A DNA stretch of 51,669 nt from an uncultured Bacteroidota bacterium (GTDB lineage Bacteria > Bacteroidota > Bacteroidia > JABEUT01): contig CAIPDV010000078.1 in assembly GCA_903863935.1 (NCBI GenBank), positions 1-51,669 on the forward strand. Reading direction: 5' to 3'. The position numbers were made by a program, and so were the translations under genes. How positions within the stretch are numbered: the stretch's first letter is position 1; each line of letters starts with the position of its first letter. The notes beneath the pieces are model-generated. The model ran no database searches. It was not told where the DNA came from and saw nothing but the letters and a program-made list of their open reading frames with translations. Below are positions 7,594 through 46,750 of this stretch, in pieces.

Positions 7594-7641
7594 TTCAGGT
7601 ATGAGTTATAGGTTATAAACAAGTTTCTAATTTAATTTTTA

Positions 7642-7649
7642 CAAAATTA
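7642..7649 (-). promoter_or_regulatory. TAnnTTTG -7 promoter element of asd
   Basis: Read on the minus strand this is TAATTTTG, 48 bases before the asd start codon. Confidence 0.5.
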
Positions 7650-7714
7650 CGGTTTTAGCCGATAGGATTAAAGGGCTTAGCCTCACTCAAAATGACAATT
7701 CTATAACCTTTAAG

Positions 7715-7740
7715 TAATTCGTAATTTTTAATTCGTAATT
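7715..7740. repeat. Tandem pair of TAATTCGTAATT
   Basis: Two exact copies of the near-palindromic 12-mer TAATTCGTAATT (7715-7726 and 7729-7740) separated by two bases. They lie immediately downstream of the outer-membrane protein gene that ends at 7747. They could form a weak hairpin or mark a repeated intergenic element. Confidence 0.6.
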
Positions 7741-7746
7741 AAAAGA

Positions 7747-8340
7747 CTAGTGCCAAAGCCCCAGATCAAACCCGGCATCAATAACAGGATTGGAATATGG
7801 ATTGTACACTGAATTATTGAAATTCCAAAGCCCATAAACAAAGAAGAAAAGTTTGTCGGTTACTTTTTCTTTATACCCGAGCCCAAGCATAGGCAAAGCT
7901 AAATTTCCCCTATACATCTGCCCGGTAATAAAGCTTTGCTCCGGAACATTCAGCACATCATATTCGCCCATTAAAAAAACGCGGTCAAGGTCCTCCGGCA
8001 AAAAGAACAGGGCAGTAATGCGGGCACCATATGTACTCGATGAATATCGACCATATCCATACCCGAAATCCTCACTCACATATTGGTAAATAGGGCCTGC
8101 ACCAACCATGAAACTCTTATTGAAATGATAATTCAGAAGCGGCTCAAGGCCAACATACGTATAGGTACCAAACTGTAAACCGAAACTCCCGCCAATAGAC
8201 AAATTTTCACCAAAGCCTCCGGGTTTTGAGTTCGGATTATTTATATTGCTCTGAGTGGTATTGCCATCTCCCGGGCGAACGTATTGCGCCTGCATGTTTA
8301 ATGCAGAACATAAAAGTAAAATTCCGATTATTTTTTTCAT
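7747..8340 (-). CDS. Probable outer-membrane beta-barrel protein
   Basis: Exported protein of 197 residues. I start it at the ATG at 8340, giving MKKIIGILLLCSALNMQAQ, a clean signal peptide ending AQA; an upstream in-frame ATG adds only five residues. After a Gly/Asn-rich linker the protein alternates short amphipathic strands rich in Tyr, Gly and Phe (SIGGSFGLQFGTYTYVGLEP, FMVGAGPIYQYV, FFVYGLWNFNNS). This looks like a small outer-membrane beta-barrel of about eight strands. I cannot assign a specific family or function. Confidence 0.75.
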   Translation of the reverse strand: MKKIIGILLLCSALNMQAQYVRPGDGNTTQSNINNPNSKPGGFGENLSIGGSFGLQFGTYTYVGLEPLLNYHFNKSFMVGAGPIYQYVSEDFGYGYGRYSSSTYGARITALFFLPEDLDRVFLMGEYDVLNVPEQSFITGQMYRGNLALPMLGLGYKEKVTDKLFFFVYGLWNFNNSVYNPYSNPVIDAGFDLGLWH

Positions 8341-35822: not shown

Positions 35823-36923
35823 ATGGGCTTATTCAGTGCAATTTCACATCAGTTAATAGACATTATTGAATGGAAGGACGATTCTACCGATACCATGGTA
35901 TGGCGTTTTCCACGCTTTCAGGACGAAATAAAAATGGGTGCTCAGCTGGTAGTTCGCCAGGCGCAGGCTGCCGTTTTTGTGAATGAAGGTAAAATAGCCG
36001 ATGTTTTTCAATCGGGAACCTATACTCTCGACACCAAGAACATTCCTATACTCACCACCCTGAAAGGTTGGAAATATGGCTTCAACAGCCCGTTTAAAGC
36101 GGAAGTCTACTTTGTAAATACCAAGCAATATACCGACCAGAAATGGGGCACCAAAAACCCAATTATGCTGAATGACGATAAGTTCGGCATGGTTGAAATA
36201 CGTGCTTTTGGCACTTACGCTTTCCGTGTTGCCGATGCAAAAAAATTCATAGAAGAAATTGTTGGAACCAACAGCTACTTCTCTACAGAAGATATGGCAG
36301 GACAGTTAAAAAGCCTTATGGTTAACAAGCTTACCGAGGAACTGGCAAAAAGTAATTTCGGTGTTGAAAAATTCTCGGCCAATGTCGGTGAGGTATCCGA
36401 TTTCTGCAAGGAAAAACTGGCCCCTGTGCTCGATACATTTGGTTTGTCATTAACACAATTTATATTGGAGAATGTATCCATGCCTCCTGAATTGAAAAAT
36501 GAAATATTCCAGTATAGCCGACTCAATAAAATTGACATGTCGAAACTGACACAGATGAATGCAGCCAATTCAATTCAAACTGCTGCTGAAAACCCCGGTA
36601 TTGGCGGAGCCGGCATGGGTATTGGTGTTGGTTTGGGTATGGGCAACCTGGTAGTAAACACCATGGGGCAGGCCATAAATCAAATGCAGCAGAGTGCTAA
36701 TACGCCTCCTCCTGTGCCACAGCCATTGCAATATTTTGTAGCGGTGGCAGGCAAGCAGACAGGGCCATTTGATGAACAGCAATTATCGGATATGGTGAAA
36801 GCAGGTACCGTGATGCGCGAAACCTTGGTTTGGAAAACAGGCATGGCTGCATGGACCCAAGCAGGACAAGTGACTGAACTATCCGGAATATTCAGTGCTA
36901 CTCCACCTCCATTGCCTTCTTAA
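35823..36923 (+). CDS. SPFH-domain protein with C-terminal GYF_2 domain
   Basis: A 366-residue protein of the YdjI-like SPFH group. Residues about 20-240 form the SPFH/band-7 domain (QLVVRQAQAAVFVNEGKIAD, EIRAFGTYAFRVADAKKFIE). A short helical part and a glycine-rich hinge follow (GIGGAGMGIGVGLGMGN, about 258-276). A C-terminal GYF_2 domain starts near residue 305 (YFVAVAGKQTGPFDEQQL, ending TLVWKTGMAAWTQAG). It has no signal peptide or transmembrane helix, so it may sit peripherally on the inner membrane. It is probably co-transcribed with the next gene, a membrane protein with zinc ribbons. SPFH proteins organise membrane microdomains; the partner is inferred from the operon. Confidence 0.9.
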   Translation: MGLFSAISHQLIDIIEWKDDSTDTMVWRFPRFQDEIKMGAQLVVRQAQAAVFVNEGKIADVFQSGTYTLDTKNIPILTTLKGWKYGFNSPFKAEVYFVNTKQYTDQKWGTKNPIMLNDDKFGMVEIRAFGTYAFRVADAKKFIEEIVGTNSYFSTEDMAGQLKSLMVNKLTEELAKSNFGVEKFSANVGEVSDFCKEKLAPVLDTFGLSLTQFILENVSMPPELKNEIFQYSRLNKIDMSKLTQMNAANSIQTAAENPGIGGAGMGIGVGLGMGNLVVNTMGQAINQMQQSANTPPPVPQPLQYFVAVAGKQTGPFDEQQLSDMVKAGTVMRETLVWKTGMAAWTQAGQVTELSGIFSATPPPLPS

Positions 36924-36956
36924 GCGTTTATTAAATAAATAACCTCTGGTATTGAT

Positions 36957-38369
36957 ATGAGATCAAAAGGGAAATCCATTTTAGCCTTGCTGCTATTGCT
37001 TTTATTAGGAATTACGGAAGCCTACTCACGCGCCGGAGGCGGCGGTGGTCACAGTGGCGGTGGTGGCAGCGGAGGAGGTGGTGGCGGAGGTTTTGGCTTC
37101 TACTTCCTGCTGATGACCCCATTCGGAAGGGTTATACTTGTAATAATACTTGTTGTATATATTTATATTAAATTTGTTAAAAAGAAAAATGCAGGCGGAA
37201 CTGACCTTGAAAGCGGCTCTTCGCAAGGCCCTAAAGGACCTCCAAAACCTATAAGTCCGGCATTCTTTACTGCAAACCCGGGTTTTGCTACCGAGGAGTT
37301 TGCCTTAAAAGTGAAGACCGCATTCATGGGCATACAGGATGCATGGATGAATAAAGACCTTGGGAAAGTGCGCAAATGGATAAGCGACGGCGTTTACCAG
37401 CGGTTCAATGCGCAGTTCACTATGATGAATTTGCTGGAACAGACCAATCCGCTAAGCAACATCCAGATAAAACAGATACGCATTGAAACAGCCCGGCAGG
37501 AAGGGGCTTATAGCATCATCACGGCTTCCGTATTTTTCAAAATGGATGATAATTTCATTTGCAAAAAGAACCCGGAATTCAATGAAAAATTCATTGGTGA
37601 CACCGCTACAGAATACTGGACCTTTATTAAAAAATCCGGCATAGCCGAAAAAGACCTTTACCACAACAATAATTGCCCTAATTGCGGATATCCGCTGAAA
37701 GATGATGGAGGACAGGTGAGCAAATGCCAGAGCTGCGAAACCGTAACTTACCTCGGAGATTATGACTGGGTGCTTTGCGAAATAACCCAGGAAGAGGACT
37801 ACGAAAGGGAGAGCGAAAGCCTCACTAAAAACGCCCCTGAACTGGCTCCGCTTTATGCTGAAAAAGACAGTGATTTCTGTATACAACTCATGGAAGACAA
37901 AGCTTCGAATGCCATTATGCAATACTTTGTTTCCGAAACCACGCACGAACTGAAATATCTCCGCAGGTTTACGGATGACGCACTGTTCGCACAGCTTGAA
38001 CAACATATAAATGAGGAAGGCACCTTTGTATTTAACCGTCTGTATCTGAACGATGTTTCCCTGGTTGCAATGGAGCAGGATAATAACCGGTGGATGGCGA
38101 CATTCAATATTTATTATTCATCTATGCGACTAACACAGACTGAAAATGGGTATCAGAAAATAGATGATACCGTGGTGGAACGTTCGCTGGCTATTACCCT
38201 TGCTAAAAAAGTGGGTGTTGTGCAGGGCAACAAACTATGGGGTTTTGAATGCCCTAGTTGCGGCGCACCTTATACCGACACAACGGTTACAGAATGCAGT
38301 TATTGCTCGGCTAAGATAAACTCAAGCGATTATGATTGGGTGATGGTAAGCCTGAATGAAGGGGATTAA
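36957..38369 (+). CDS. Tim44-like membrane protein with two zinc ribbons
   Basis: A 470-residue membrane protein. A signal-like N-terminus (ILALLLLLLLGITEAYSRA) leads into a glycine/serine-rich stretch and a transmembrane helix (about 49-70, FLLMTPFGRVILVIILVVYI). A Tim44-like domain follows (about 105-225, TEEFALKVKTAFMGIQDAWM). A first zinc ribbon has the pairs CPNC and CQSC, and a second at the extreme C-terminus has CPSC and CSYC; each is followed by the same DYDWV stretch. A further Tim44-like region sits between the ribbons. It is 33 bases downstream of the SPFH/GYF gene. Tim44-like domains bind membranes or translocation partners in mitochondria; the role here is unknown. Confidence 0.88.
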   Translation: MRSKGKSILALLLLLLLGITEAYSRAGGGGGHSGGGGSGGGGGGGFGFYFLLMTPFGRVILVIILVVYIYIKFVKKKNAGGTDLESGSSQGPKGPPKPISPAFFTANPGFATEEFALKVKTAFMGIQDAWMNKDLGKVRKWISDGVYQRFNAQFTMMNLLEQTNPLSNIQIKQIRIETARQEGAYSIITASVFFKMDDNFICKKNPEFNEKFIGDTATEYWTFIKKSGIAEKDLYHNNNCPNCGYPLKDDGGQVSKCQSCETVTYLGDYDWVLCEITQEEDYERESESLTKNAPELAPLYAEKDSDFCIQLMEDKASNAIMQYFVSETTHELKYLRRFTDDALFAQLEQHINEEGTFVFNRLYLNDVSLVAMEQDNNRWMATFNIYYSSMRLTQTENGYQKIDDTVVERSLAITLAKKVGVVQGNKLWGFECPSCGAPYTDTTVTECSYCSAKINSSDYDWVMVSLNEGD

Positions 38370-39027: not shown

Positions 39028-40302
39028 TTAGATGTTCTCTATAAGTGCATCGTCCGTGTCTGATTCTTCTTCTTTTTTCTTCTTTATCATATATTGTTGC
39101 ATCAAGTAATAAAACACACCAAAAACAACCAGCGCAGCAATACCCTCGGCCAATATAGTATTTGGTGCTCCTATTAACTTTGACAATCCGCCAATCATTA
39201 AAGCCCCCAGTGGCAGCATCCCGAAAAAGGCCATGGCAAAATAGCTTATCACCCGGCCCCTCATTTCAGGGCTAACTGTTGTTTGTATGATAGTATTGCT
39301 CACAGTAACTTGTGTCATCATACCGAAACCTGCTATTATCGCGCATAGGCAAGCAACCCAGAAAACGGTTATGTGCGAAAATAATATCAACCCTATACCA
39401 AAAATTAGGGTGGATACTAATAGTATCTTTCGAAGATTAGCCCCGGGCTTTATTGATGCCAGGAATATTGCACCTCCAATTGCACCAACCCCTATAAATC
39501 CATTCAGGTAGCCGAATGTAGAAGCATGACCCTTAAAAATAACATTGGCATAATAGGGTAGCAAGGCAGTGTAAGGAAGCACCAAAAAACTCATAATACC
39601 AAGAAACAGAATTACCAACCCTATGCTTGGAGTAGCTTTTAAATAATTGAACCCGTCTTTAAACTCACGGCCTACCTTTTTTGAACTGTTATGTGGAATA
39701 GGCTTTTTAAACCGCATCATTAAAAGGGAAATAATAACGGCAATAAAACTTACGGCATTCAGTCCGAAGCAAATTCCTGCACCAAATTTTTCCAGTACTA
39801 TCCCTGCAAAAACAGGGCCTACAATCTTCGCAAGGTTTACCATGGAAGAATTCAAGGCAATTGCATTCGACAGATCCTCTTTTTTATCCACCATTTCATA
39901 AATGAGCGAGTGACGGGCCGGAACATCAAATGCATTAATAATGCCTAATATAACACTGATGGCCAGAATTTCAAATACCGTATAATGCTTTGTTAAAATT
40001 AAAATGGTAAGTAACACGGATTGTATGAGAGAAAGTATCTGAGTTGTAAGTAATACTTTAAACCTGTCATACCTGTCGGATACTACCCCTCCGAAAAGCG
40101 AAAACAGGAAACTAGGGAACTGGGTTGCGAACATGGTTAAGCCCACCATGAAATTTGAATCGGTCATAACATAAACGATCCAGCTAACGGAGGTTTTCTG
40201 CATCCAGGTACCCATAAGCGAGATGGATTGTCCGCTGAAAAACAGCCTGTAGTTGCGGCTGCTGAATGCCCGGAATGTATTTATTTTAAAACTTGCCGCC
40301 AT
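39028..40302 (-). CDS. MFS exporter (EntS-like, MFS_3 type)
   Basis: A 424-residue major facilitator with about 12 hydrophobic helices. The N-terminus SRNYRLFFSGQSISLMGTWM is characteristic of the MFS_3 subfamily that includes the enterobactin exporter EntS and macrolide-type pumps, and the loop motif GGVVSDRYDRFKVLL follows helix 2. The tail is strongly charged (KKKKEEESDTDD). It is encoded 17 bases downstream of a MarR-type regulator and upstream of an isochorismatase-like gene, the usual layout of a repressor-controlled efflux operon. The exported compound is unknown. Confidence 0.92.
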   Translation of the reverse strand: MAASFKINTFRAFSSRNYRLFFSGQSISLMGTWMQKTSVSWIVYVMTDSNFMVGLTMFATQFPSFLFSLFGGVVSDRYDRFKVLLTTQILSLIQSVLLTILILTKHYTVFEILAISVILGIINAFDVPARHSLIYEMVDKKEDLSNAIALNSSMVNLAKIVGPVFAGIVLEKFGAGICFGLNAVSFIAVIISLLMMRFKKPIPHNSSKKVGREFKDGFNYLKATPSIGLVILFLGIMSFLVLPYTALLPYYANVIFKGHASTFGYLNGFIGVGAIGGAIFLASIKPGANLRKILLVSTLIFGIGLILFSHITVFWVACLCAIIAGFGMMTQVTVSNTIIQTTVSPEMRGRVISYFAMAFFGMLPLGALMIGGLSKLIGAPNTILAEGIAALVVFGVFYYLMQQYMIKKKKEEESDTDDALIENI

Positions 40303-40319: not shown

Positions 40320-40748
40320 CTATTTGGCTTCATTCAGCTTGTTAAGTACCGGTAAAACTTTTGTCAGCAGCACTTTTTCCTTTTCTGTAAGTGATTTGTC
40401 GATGGCGTTTTTCAGCCATTCGTCTTTATCATATTTTACTTTTTCCACCATTTTTTTTCCGAACGAAGTGAGGGATATATATACTTTGCGTTTATCCTCT
40501 TTTGAAGGTGTTCTTTTAATGATGCTTTGTTCTTCCAGCTTTTTAAGTATTTGAGACATGGATTGGGTCTTGACTTTCGTCAGCGATGCCAGCTCGGTTG
40601 GCAATAAGGATGGGGACCTGAACAAATGTCCGATGGTTTCCATTTCGGTCATGGAATAGTTGTTGACAGAATCACTTTGCCTGCGTAAACCCTTATGCAA
40701 CGCAGAAATAACCGAACGCAATGATGAAGACAATTCAGATGTATTCAT
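40320..40748 (-). CDS. MarR family transcriptional regulator
   Basis: A 142-residue winged-helix regulator. The DNA-binding part reads LLPTELASLTKVKTQSMSQI for the helix-turn-helix and ITRTP-like IIKRTPSKEDKRKVYISLT for the wing, the hallmark of MarR proteins. These usually repress their own operon and release DNA on binding a small phenolic ligand. It is the first gene of an operon with an MFS exporter and an isochorismatase-like hydrolase. A near-palindrome at 40771-40786 overlaps the expected transcription start and could be its operator. Confidence 0.93.
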   Translation of the reverse strand: MNTSELSSSLRSVISALHKGLRRQSDSVNNYSMTEMETIGHLFRSPSLLPTELASLTKVKTQSMSQILKKLEEQSIIKRTPSKEDKRKVYISLTSFGKKMVEKVKYDKDEWLKNAIDKSLTEKEKVLLTKVLPVLNKLNEAK

Positions 40749-40930: not shown

Positions 40931-41917
40931 ATGCGTACTACCCATACTTTGGCAATACTGCTACTTATATTTACACATCAATTTTGTGGTTGCAAACCAA
41001 AGTCAAAGCCGCGTACAGGGCCACACAGGGTAATTGTGCTGGAAGTGGATACGTTTGGAAATTACAGACACCCGGGACAGTTTACTCCTTCCAAAATCCA
41101 TACTCTTACTCATAGCATTTCGGCAGTTATCAGGAAGCGTTTAATAAAAGCGGGTGTGAGTATTGATTCTATTGAAGTGTCCGACACAAATACACATGTA
41201 ACGGTAAAACTCTGGCACCTGGAAGAACAGGGCGCATCAATTGAACGGGTGCGTAAACTTATACAGGAGGATGGGAAACTAGGCTTTTGGGAAACATTTG
41301 ATGCTAAAGATGCCTATGCAGAACTATTCCCTGGTGAAAATGCTATTGAAAGCGATACCCTCAATTTTTTCCACAGAGAGCTTATTCGTTATTTAAACCT
41401 TGATTCGGCCCGGCTGTTTCATATTCCTTATGGTATTGGGCCATTAATTGGATATGCAGAACCAAAAGATACTATGAATGCAGATATTATTCTAAGCAAA
41501 TTGCATTTACCAAAAAACATGCATTTTTTATGGAGTTTTAAACGAATGAGGCAAAACAATAATTTAGTTGCGCTGTATGCAATAAAAGGAATAGAACCAG
41601 CCATGACAGGTGAAGTGGTTGCCGCTGCCAAGGCTGCAAAAGGAGGCATGGGCTCCCCGGTTATCAGCATTACCATGAATGATGCCGGTGCAGAGAAATG
41701 GCGTGTTCTGACAAAAGATAATATTAAGAAAGAAATTGCAATTACATTTGATGACAGGGTGTGTACAAGCCCCAGAGTAATGAGTGAGATATCCGCTGGC
41801 AAATGTGATATTTCAGGGGATTTTACAATGGATGAAGCTAAGGATCTTGCTGCTCTTCTTACAGCAGGTGATATGCCTGCGCAGGTACGCATAGTTGCGG
41901 AAAACATCGAAAACTAA
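40931..41917 (+). CDS. Exported SecD-P1-like protein without a membrane domain
   Basis: A 328-residue protein resembling only the periplasmic part of SecD. The N-terminus is a signal peptide with a poor lipobox (FCGC, Cys21). ISAVIRKRLIKAGVSIDSIEV (about 59-79) matches the SecD P1 base, and IQEDGKLGFWETFDA matches the Bacteroidota SecDF stretch GKLEFWETY. Residues about 230-325 match the P1 head: ISITMNDAGAEKWRVLTKDN, IAITFDDRVCTSPRV, then CDISGDFTMDEAKDLAALL. The six SecD transmembrane helices are absent. A stand-alone P1 domain could modulate export or be a relic. The match is by motif; I have not run a search. Confidence 0.78.
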   Translation: MRTTHTLAILLLIFTHQFCGCKPKSKPRTGPHRVIVLEVDTFGNYRHPGQFTPSKIHTLTHSISAVIRKRLIKAGVSIDSIEVSDTNTHVTVKLWHLEEQGASIERVRKLIQEDGKLGFWETFDAKDAYAELFPGENAIESDTLNFFHRELIRYLNLDSARLFHIPYGIGPLIGYAEPKDTMNADIILSKLHLPKNMHFLWSFKRMRQNNNLVALYAIKGIEPAMTGEVVAAAKAAKGGMGSPVISITMNDAGAEKWRVLTKDNIKKEIAITFDDRVCTSPRVMSEISAGKCDISGDFTMDEAKDLAALLTAGDMPAQVRIVAENIEN

Positions 41918-41981: not shown

Positions 41982-41989
41982 TACATTTG
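41982..41989 (+). promoter_or_regulatory. TAnnTTTG -7 promoter element
   Basis: TACATTTG lies 39 bases before the ATG at 42029 of the CAP-domain gene. It overlaps the longer in-frame start at 41987, which is therefore unlikely. Confidence 0.6.
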
Positions 41990-42028
41990 CATATAAACTG
42001 TAATCAACCTTTTCTAATTCCTATTTTT

Positions 42029-42631
42029 ATGTTGCGTAAATTTTCAATCATAGCAGGTTTTTGTCTTCTTGCGGGAAGCTTAATTTTATTACCATCTTTC
42101 ACAATTAACCCGGAGAAAGGCGTTTATCTTGACAAAGCCCAGGAACAAAAAGCATTTGTATTGTTAAATAAAGTACGTAAAGACCCGAATGCATATTCTG
42201 AACGTTACGGTGTTTCACTAAGGGGCATTGCACCGCGTACCGACCTGGTTTGGAATGATTCACTGGCAGTGGTTGCTGAACGAAAAGCCATGAGCATGGC
42301 TATGCGTGGCTATTTCGGGCATGTTGACCCGGATGGAAACGGAATCAACATCATAATCAATAAATCGTACCCCCTATCCGACGACCTTATAAAAGACAAA
42401 AAACTAGGCACCCTTGAAGCTCTTGAAGGCGGCGCACCTTCGGGCGAAGTAGCCATTAAAAATATTGTTACCGATAAAGCCCATACCGGACAGGAAGGCC
42501 GCAAGCTTGTGCTTGGCGAAGGCGATTTTAATGCTTCCCTGAATGAAGTAGGCATTGGTTATGTGCATGGAACCGGCTCTACAAAATACTGGAGCTACAC
42601 AGTAATTATACTGGGAAAAAAGAAACAATAG
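42029..42631 (+). CDS. CAP (SCP/PR1-like) domain protein
   Basis: Exported protein of 200 residues. The start at 42029 gives MLRKFSIIAGFCLLAGSLIL, a signal anchor or signal peptide. The CAP domain shows ALLNKVR-like VLLNKVRKDPNAY, then LVWNDSLAVVAERKAMSMA, the conserved His in MRGYFGHVDPDG, and the C-terminal NEVGIGYVHGTGSTKYWSY. CAP proteins bind metals, lipids or glycans and are common secreted proteins of unknown biochemical role in bacteria. It is convergent with the MauE-thioredoxin gene. Confidence 0.9.
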   Translation: MLRKFSIIAGFCLLAGSLILLPSFTINPEKGVYLDKAQEQKAFVLLNKVRKDPNAYSERYGVSLRGIAPRTDLVWNDSLAVVAERKAMSMAMRGYFGHVDPDGNGINIIINKSYPLSDDLIKDKKLGTLEALEGGAPSGEVAIKNIVTDKAHTGQEGRKLVLGEGDFNASLNEVGIGYVHGTGSTKYWSYTVIILGKKKQ

Positions 42632-45682: not shown

Positions 45683-46750
45683 CTATATGTAATTTATATC
45701 TTCAATGTTATCCACATCAACTATTGTAGAATAGGCTTTGTCCGGAATATCAGTTTTCTTATATCTAACTGCATTAAGAATAGTTACAAATCGAAATTTG
45801 TTTTTGTTTTTCAAGGATTCGTAATCATCAAATCCCTGGAAGAATCCAACAAGTGCGTCTCCAATTTTAAGCGTAACTCGTATCGGCGGGGAAATGCGTA
45901 GGTGGATATCAATAAAATCAGTCTTTTCTTTTGTACTTAGTATTTCCATACCACTTTTCCTTGTAGGTGACATAATTACTTTGCTTAAATAATATTTTTT
46001 AAACCAGTTAGGAAGTTTCTCCATGTCAATATTATCCCATTTTTTTTTGCCCTTTTCCCATTTAAAGTGAGCAACTGGCGCAAATTCAGTACCTGAATTA
46101 TCAAAAAAATAAGCCTGATAAGCAACTTGGGCTGCATAGAATAATAGCTCAAGTGATTTATAATAACGTTTTATAATTTTATCCGGTGGTACATCATGCT
46201 TCTTATCTATTACCCTTGATGCAACGTGTAATTTATTAATCTCGGGATCTTCGGTGGCTACAAAATATAAATAGACCTTATATCCTGCTTTGGCAGCCCG
46301 TTTCATTATATCCAATTTCGATTCGTGTGAAAAAACAGTTTCAAAAGAGAATTTTTTCTTCTCATCCAGCAATTTCTCACGTATATAATTTGCAAGTATC
46401 TGAGCCAAATGTTCATCCGATTCTTCAACATTCAAGAGTATTCTGTTCTCCTTGAATTCATAACATCTTTTAAAATCAGCTTCGGTAAACTCATTATTCA
46501 CCAGTCCGGATGCAATTGATACTGCAAAAAAGTCCTTATTCGTTACCCGTAGCTCATATTGGTTAAAAGAGAATTTGTTCGCCCTTAATGCCTGGGCAAT
46601 ATCATCTGCATTTATATAAATGCCGAAATCTATAACTTTTCCATTTTCCTTATGTTTTCTTGCAGCATCAATAATTGTGCTTTTGCCCGAACCATTAGGT
46701 CCTGCGAAAACCCGCATGCGTAAATGATCGGAAGAATTAATCGAGGTCAA
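45683..46750 (-). CDS. Zeta-toxin-like P-loop kinase with C-terminal extension
   Basis: A 355-residue P-loop protein. Walker A is GPNGSGKST (17-25), followed by INADDIAQAL (Asp49, Asp50) and FSFETVFSHESKLDIMKRA. The zeta-family tail SRVIDKKHDVPPDKIIKRYYKSLELLFYA...FFDNSGTEF follows. Zeta toxins phosphorylate UDP-N-acetylglucosamine or other nucleotide-like substrates, which blocks cell-wall synthesis. The last ~110 residues (from about 245) are an extra, strand-rich domain not found in short zeta toxins. The gene begins within the last 14 bases of an 80-residue partner gene, typical of coupled toxin-antitoxin pairs. Confidence 0.85.
   Translation of the reverse strand: MTSINSSDHLRMRVFAGPNGSGKSTIIDAARKHKENGKVIDFGIYINADDIAQALRANKFSFNQYELRVTNKDFFAVSIASGLVNNEFTEADFKRCYEFKENRILLNVEESDEHLAQILANYIREKLLDEKKKFSFETVFSHESKLDIMKRAAKAGYKVYLYFVATEDPEINKLHVASRVIDKKHDVPPDKIIKRYYKSLELLFYAAQVAYQAYFFDNSGTEFAPVAHFKWEKGKKKWDNIDMEKLPNWFKKYYLSKVIMSPTRKSGMEILSTKEKTDFIDIHLRISPPIRVTLKIGDALVGFFQGFDDYESLKNKNKFRFVTILNAVRYKKTDIPDKAYSTIVDVDNIEDINYI

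Follow-up and report, generated by a model that had tools for sequence, protein, structure and literature searches.

A free-standing SecD P1 domain with a lipoprotein-like signal in a Bacteroidota genome and its scattered relatives within the class

The window, that is, the whole stretch of DNA analysed here (51.7 kb), is contig C78 of a 3.76-Mb Bacteroidota genome of 98.3% completeness, and it carries a reading frame for a protein, P0001, whose parts are set out in Table 1 together with the adjoining genes. The initial annotation had placed an exported SecD P1-like protein at 40931-41917, and both this frame and the two head motifs quoted for it are present in the sequence. No known Sec component could be found among the ten scanned neighbours of P0001, and the GC3 of its gene (0.334) was below that of seven of the eight neighbours tested. 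Elsewhere in the window lie a protein combining SPFH/Band-7 and GYF_2 domains and, after it, a Tim44-like domain protein (35823-38369, +), as well as a 355-aa P-loop protein with a weak Zeta_toxin match (45683-46750, -; E 1.5e-7).

Table 1. Coordinates in the window of the P0001 gene, its parts and the adjoining genes
Feature	Coordinates	Strand	Remarks
MFS protein	39028-40302	-	divergent from P0001 gene
MarR-type regulator	40320-40748	-	divergent from P0001 gene
Stand-alone SecD P1 lipoprotein gene (lipidation probable)	40931..41917	+	P0001, 328 aa, ATG to TAA
Signal sequence, residues 1-20	40931..40990	+	read from sequence
Cys21 codon, probable lipid attachment site	40991..40993	+	Cys in 17/17 intact members
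P1 base, residues 32-122	41024..41296	+	predicted model, VIA-align 2, NCBIfam alignments
Middle region, residues 123-221	41297..41593	+	common to Bacteroidota SecDF (GPLIGYAEPKDT, FLW)
P1 head, residues 222-317	41594..41881	+	PF22599, E 2.1e-24
Last P1 base strand, residues 319-327	41885-41911	+	predicted model
CAP-domain protein, weak match	41987-42631		downstream of P0001 gene

The suggested profile search with SecD P1 families assigned the head of P0001 to Pfam SecDF_P1_head (86.1 bits; cut-off 27). In NCBIfam, the SecDF model NF009585 matched in two stretches (E 1.2e-47), residues 58-324 aligned with a shorter SecDF model and 62-325 with SecD, and the P1 of Thermus SecDF (3aqo) matched at 5.8e-14, so that the likeness to the SecD P1 base and head claimed in the initial annotation is borne out by all of these sources and, in sequence, is far beyond chance. 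The whole-protein cut-offs for SecDF (162.6 vs. 1037 bits for NF009585) and SecD (84.9 vs. 244.4 bits for TIGR01129) were not reached, and the frame stops after P1, with no RND-type transmembrane domain with its proton path, P4 or SecF part. No PPIase or chaperone family was present among the Pfam and NCBIfam matches. We conclude that P0001 is an intact, whole SecD P1, comprising base and head, that is free-standing and lacks the membrane domain.

The predicted structure of P0001 was of middling confidence (mean pLDDT 63.1, with 46-52 for the other four models; pTM 0.62), and showed a strand-helix-strand-strand-helix-strand order in the base, completed by the final strand. In VIA-align 2, residues 27-328 of this model were superposed on residues 35-263 of 3aqp_A with Z 11.8 (rmsd 3.8, 213 aligned), against Z values of 7-8 for unrelated folds, and Foldseek TM-scores (by query length) against SecDF entries were 0.31-0.50. 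The fold thus matches SecD P1 rather than an unrelated one. Nevertheless, the match cannot count as independent evidence for the fold, because the alignment behind the model included 13 SecD/SecDF P1 segments; the sequence evidence for P1 identity stands independently of the model.

The signal of P0001 ends in FCG before Cys21, a relaxed lipobox, and is followed by KPKSKPRTGP. A Cys preceded by G, A or S behind a hydrophobic stretch was found in all 17 intact stand-alone P1 proteins identified in the class, and this Cys was invariant in alignments A3 and A4. The stricter lipobox pattern is [LVI][ASTVI][GAS]C, which fits 3 of the 17 stand-alones and not P0001 (FCGC). The lipoprotein export signal that directs Bacteroidota proteins to the surface, K-(D/E)2 or Q-A-(D/E)2 after the Cys according to the accessible part of PMC5080379, could be recognised in one of the 17 (G084b), P0001 having C-KPKSKP instead; therefore most stand-alones would face the periplasm, on the motif as given there. 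Hence the initial claim that a signal peptide replaces the membrane domain stood as regards the missing membrane part and the signal with Cys21, while the lipid anchor is only probable: P0001 is probably exported and lipid-anchored, and the stand-alones in general may be lipidated on the periplasmic side. A near-constant Cys also occurs at about residue 18 inside TM1 of Bacteroidota SecDFs, in contexts such as LLALAC and LLTLVC (75 of 82 rows, in which some genes were fetched twice and that of L098 has no N-terminus), including the SecDF of the window's own genome. Together with its context it looks like an incomplete lipobox, which might favour the emergence of P1 lipoproteins; alternatively, the Cys might serve in packing.

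Contig C126 of this genome encodes a complete SecDF of 1029 aa (L061:4450-7539), which matches P0001 at 36% over residues 166-326. When the part of this SecDF beyond P1 was used as a tblastn query, no SecDF membrane part was detected anywhere in the window. The suspicion that P0001 is a misassembled or truncated secDF was rejected, since the gene is embedded in a contig of 51.7 kb, the window contains no SecDF tail and the separate secDF is complete. The same check at 17 loci recovered a tail only at L090, where it belongs to a complete adjoining secDF; at L153 the adjacent secDF runs off the contig.

The class was searched with P0001 and with profiles A2 and A4. At least 18 P1-only genes (one with an internal stop) were found in at least 16 of 395 genomes drawn from the window's class, spread over at least nine of 78 family codes (f1, f2, f10, f19, f21, f38, f56, f58 and f62); the figure of 16/395 is a lower bound, as three of the surveys scored some five candidates in each genome, one of them covering matches with E up to 1e-40. 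The carriers are G000, G003, G028, G063, G084 (two genes), G108, G119, G148, G161, G179, G224, G234 (two, in tandem), G281, G306, G314 and G340. All candidates were scored in sets of 80, 12 and 80 class genomes (all but 1, 8 and 4 in three genomes of the last set), the two sets of 80 having been chosen by us with weight on distinct families and on genomes with a second match. With all candidates scored, no full P1-only gene was detected in 80 genomes from other classes of the phylum; in two of these, G404 (C27) and G420 (C5), a short frame matched the head alone. The copy in G063 (L149:5134-6252, -) is broken by a TAG, being a pseudogene or a sequence error, and was left out of the trees and residue counts for its stop; also set aside were L095, a SecD fragment truncated where its contig stops, the G072 matches at contig ends, and head-only proteins. 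Short, exported-looking proteins with nothing but a P1-head-like stretch (L158:4473-4961 and 7600-8103, L155:5443-6276 and L157:4571-5221, with 162-277 aa in these four, and the frames in G404 and G420) form another, smaller type of free-standing SecD piece. The tandem genes of G234 (L097:4549-6566, +) overlap by about 60 bases if the second starts at TTG. The survey of Bacteroidota proposed in the initial annotation did reveal short proteins of this type in genomes with a full secDF, and P0001 is no single oddity but one of a scattered set.

SecDF was present in 15 of the 16 carrier genomes, being complete in 13 and truncated at the contig edge in G028 and G340; in G148, a carrier genome of 96% completeness, no match to SecDF reached an E of 1e-6 or better, its SecDF perhaps lying on a missing contig. 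The nearest stand-alone relative of P0001, a 351-aa protein with 36-37% identity, belongs to another species of the same genus (G003) and has the same layout, with Cys21 followed by KPRTGPH. Within this genus, 2 of 11 genomes contained the gene, several of the others being only 52-70% complete; this patchy presence, together with the copy bearing a stop, shows that the gene is dispensable. Apart from secDF, which directly follows the stand-alone gene on the same strand in G108 (gap of about 265 bases) and G340 (about 260), and one gene common to the close pair G224/G314, no conserved neighbourhood was recognised. No relatives of P0001 were found in viral contigs, and among 20 of the 38 matching plasmid records none covered more than 80% of P0001, the annotated ones being SecD/SecDF. 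For the A4 members, the only Pfam match above chance in 9/10 was the general P1-head model, and in 10/10 only SecD/SecDF models matched in NCBIfam, single weak chance-level matches aside.

Residues shared by at least 80% of 25 SecDFs were taken as conserved, and the 17 stand-alones were scored in the aligned cells. The stand-alones keep 416 of 778 such cells in the head (53%) and 213 of 295 in the middle region (72%), compared with 280 of 769 in the base, the base being the more difficult part to align and the 17 members not being independent of one another; SecDFs keep 95%, 93% and 94% in head, middle and base among each other. The head is kept better than the base in 15 of the 17, the two G234 genes being the exceptions. 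In the linker to TM2 at the C-terminus, 11 of 50 aligned cells are kept, and both the D and the second L of the GLDLxGG motif at the start of P1 are retained in none of the 17. This pattern is what would be expected if contact with the membrane domain had been lost while the gripping part was maintained.

In a careful tree of 43 rows, with ten long branches flagged, the G161 stand-alone joined its own SecDF (93/94, not starred) and that of G108 was nested among SecDFs in one clade (99/99, starred), a hint that the stand-alone P1 arose several times. In a quicker, earlier tree with 64 rows, G161 and G108 lay outside the SecDFs and G306 lay among them, so that the placements depend on the rows and columns used. 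Uniting all 17 stand-alones in one group cost 0.66 log units and was not rejected (p-AU 0.471), nor was joining the genes of the window and G003 with the SecDFs of their genus (p-AU 0.455).

The P1 domain itself is already known; what is new is its occurrence in a free-standing, lipoprotein-like form. P0001 resembles the P1 of SecD/SecDF (PF22599; 3aqo, 3aqp, 5xan) in its head by Pfam, in base and head by the structural match, and in the middle insert common to Bacteroidota SecDF, but differs from SecD/SecDF in having no transmembrane helices beyond the signal and no proton path, P4 or SecF part, and, like the other stand-alones, has lost GLDLxGG and most of the linker to TM2. The isolated Thermus SecDF P1 (3aqo), a separate 229-residue chain that we take to be a laboratory construct, demonstrates that P1 folds alone, whereas P0001 is a natural P1-only gene with an export signal. 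PpiD, a membrane-anchored periplasmic chaperone at the Sec exit in the accessible part of PMC7793623, would be comparable by hypothesis only, as an energy-independent catcher held near the translocon; P0001 is unrelated to it and its proposed anchor is a lipid. No description of free P1 lipoproteins was found in the literature searched, which included few subscription papers, in agreement with the initial statement that no family of soluble or lipid-anchored SecD P1 proteins has been described.

The reading that we tentatively favour, while giving it somewhat less than an even chance, is that of a passive catcher or holdase. By its sequence, the gene is a duplicate of the periplasmic P1 of SecDF fused to a lipoprotein-like signal, with the probable anchor at the place of TM1 and GLDLxGG and the protein ending where TM2 would start. 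The mature protein would hang from a membrane into the periplasm, where its head, described as the substrate-binding site of SecD in the accessible part of PMC7793623, could hold envelope proteins while they emerge or are unfolded, close to where Sec releases them or en route to BAM. Anchored by a lipid, such a P1 could keep its grip on a chain but exert no pull; the substrates might be passed on and SecDF backed up without proton coupling or a proton-driven pull. Substrate binding by the free P1 and its benefit to the cell are presumed here, and the patchy spread suggests that the role is an accessory one, for particular loads or conditions. The complete P1, the absence of the motor and the full SecDF in the same genome count for this catcher role, as do the recurrence of such genes in the class, the Cys in all 17 intact members, the retention of SecDF-conserved residues in head and middle, the low dN relative to dS in the G224/G314 pair and the substrate binding described for the head; the strict lipobox in 3/17, the better-kept base of the G234 genes, dispensability and the few conserved neighbours count against it.

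A P1 scaffold taken over for a binding job apart from protein export could account for the fast divergence (stand-alone identity to P0001 of 18-35%), the long branches and the absence of conserved export neighbours, but the better retention of SecDF-conserved cells in head and middle than in base points to a continuing importance of the old binding surface, leaving a new ligand on the unlikely side. A free P1 might otherwise occupy the partners of SecDF, such as the translocon, a SurA-like chaperone or BAM lipoproteins, and thereby tune or limit it. SurA was predicted on the P1 head of SecDF (PMC9987972), and a SecD from which P1 is missing fails to move Sec parts into outer-membrane fractions (PMC7695460), both as stated in the accessible parts of these papers; the gene directly upstream of secDF in G108 and G340 agrees with such a regulator or competitor, whereas secDF does not adjoin in the other loci examined, and we consider this role rather unlikely.

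Fast divergence, patchy presence and the TAG in the G063 copy would also be expected of a decaying secDF duplicate that had chanced on a signal. However, 17 of the 18 copies remain open despite deep divergence, the Cys is present throughout the intact copies, and loss is uneven between head and base. Furthermore, in the G224/G314 pair, the sole one close enough for such estimates (the window's gene lacks a relative of this kind), dN was 0.18 and dS 0.86 (NG86), or 0.16 and 1.82 (YN00), with the same residue in 295 of 430 aligned codons and 72, 63 and 167 differences by codon position; a dN/dS of about 0.1-0.2 indicates that this lineage is constrained by purifying selection. A mere remnant is thus improbable in our judgement. 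Extending the catcher role, it is a long shot that Bacteroidota repeatedly freed P1 onto a lipid anchor and that P1 on the outer membrane acts in trans as a relay from Sec to BAM, handing over SecDF substrates, for which no description was found in the literature searched.

The roles proposed for P1 are those of the moving arm of a proton motor, a substrate-binding site and a contact to chaperones and BAM. A natural, motor-less P1 beside a complete SecDF offers a ready-made tool to separate these roles, and would show that part of a widespread machine can turn into an accessory gene of its own.
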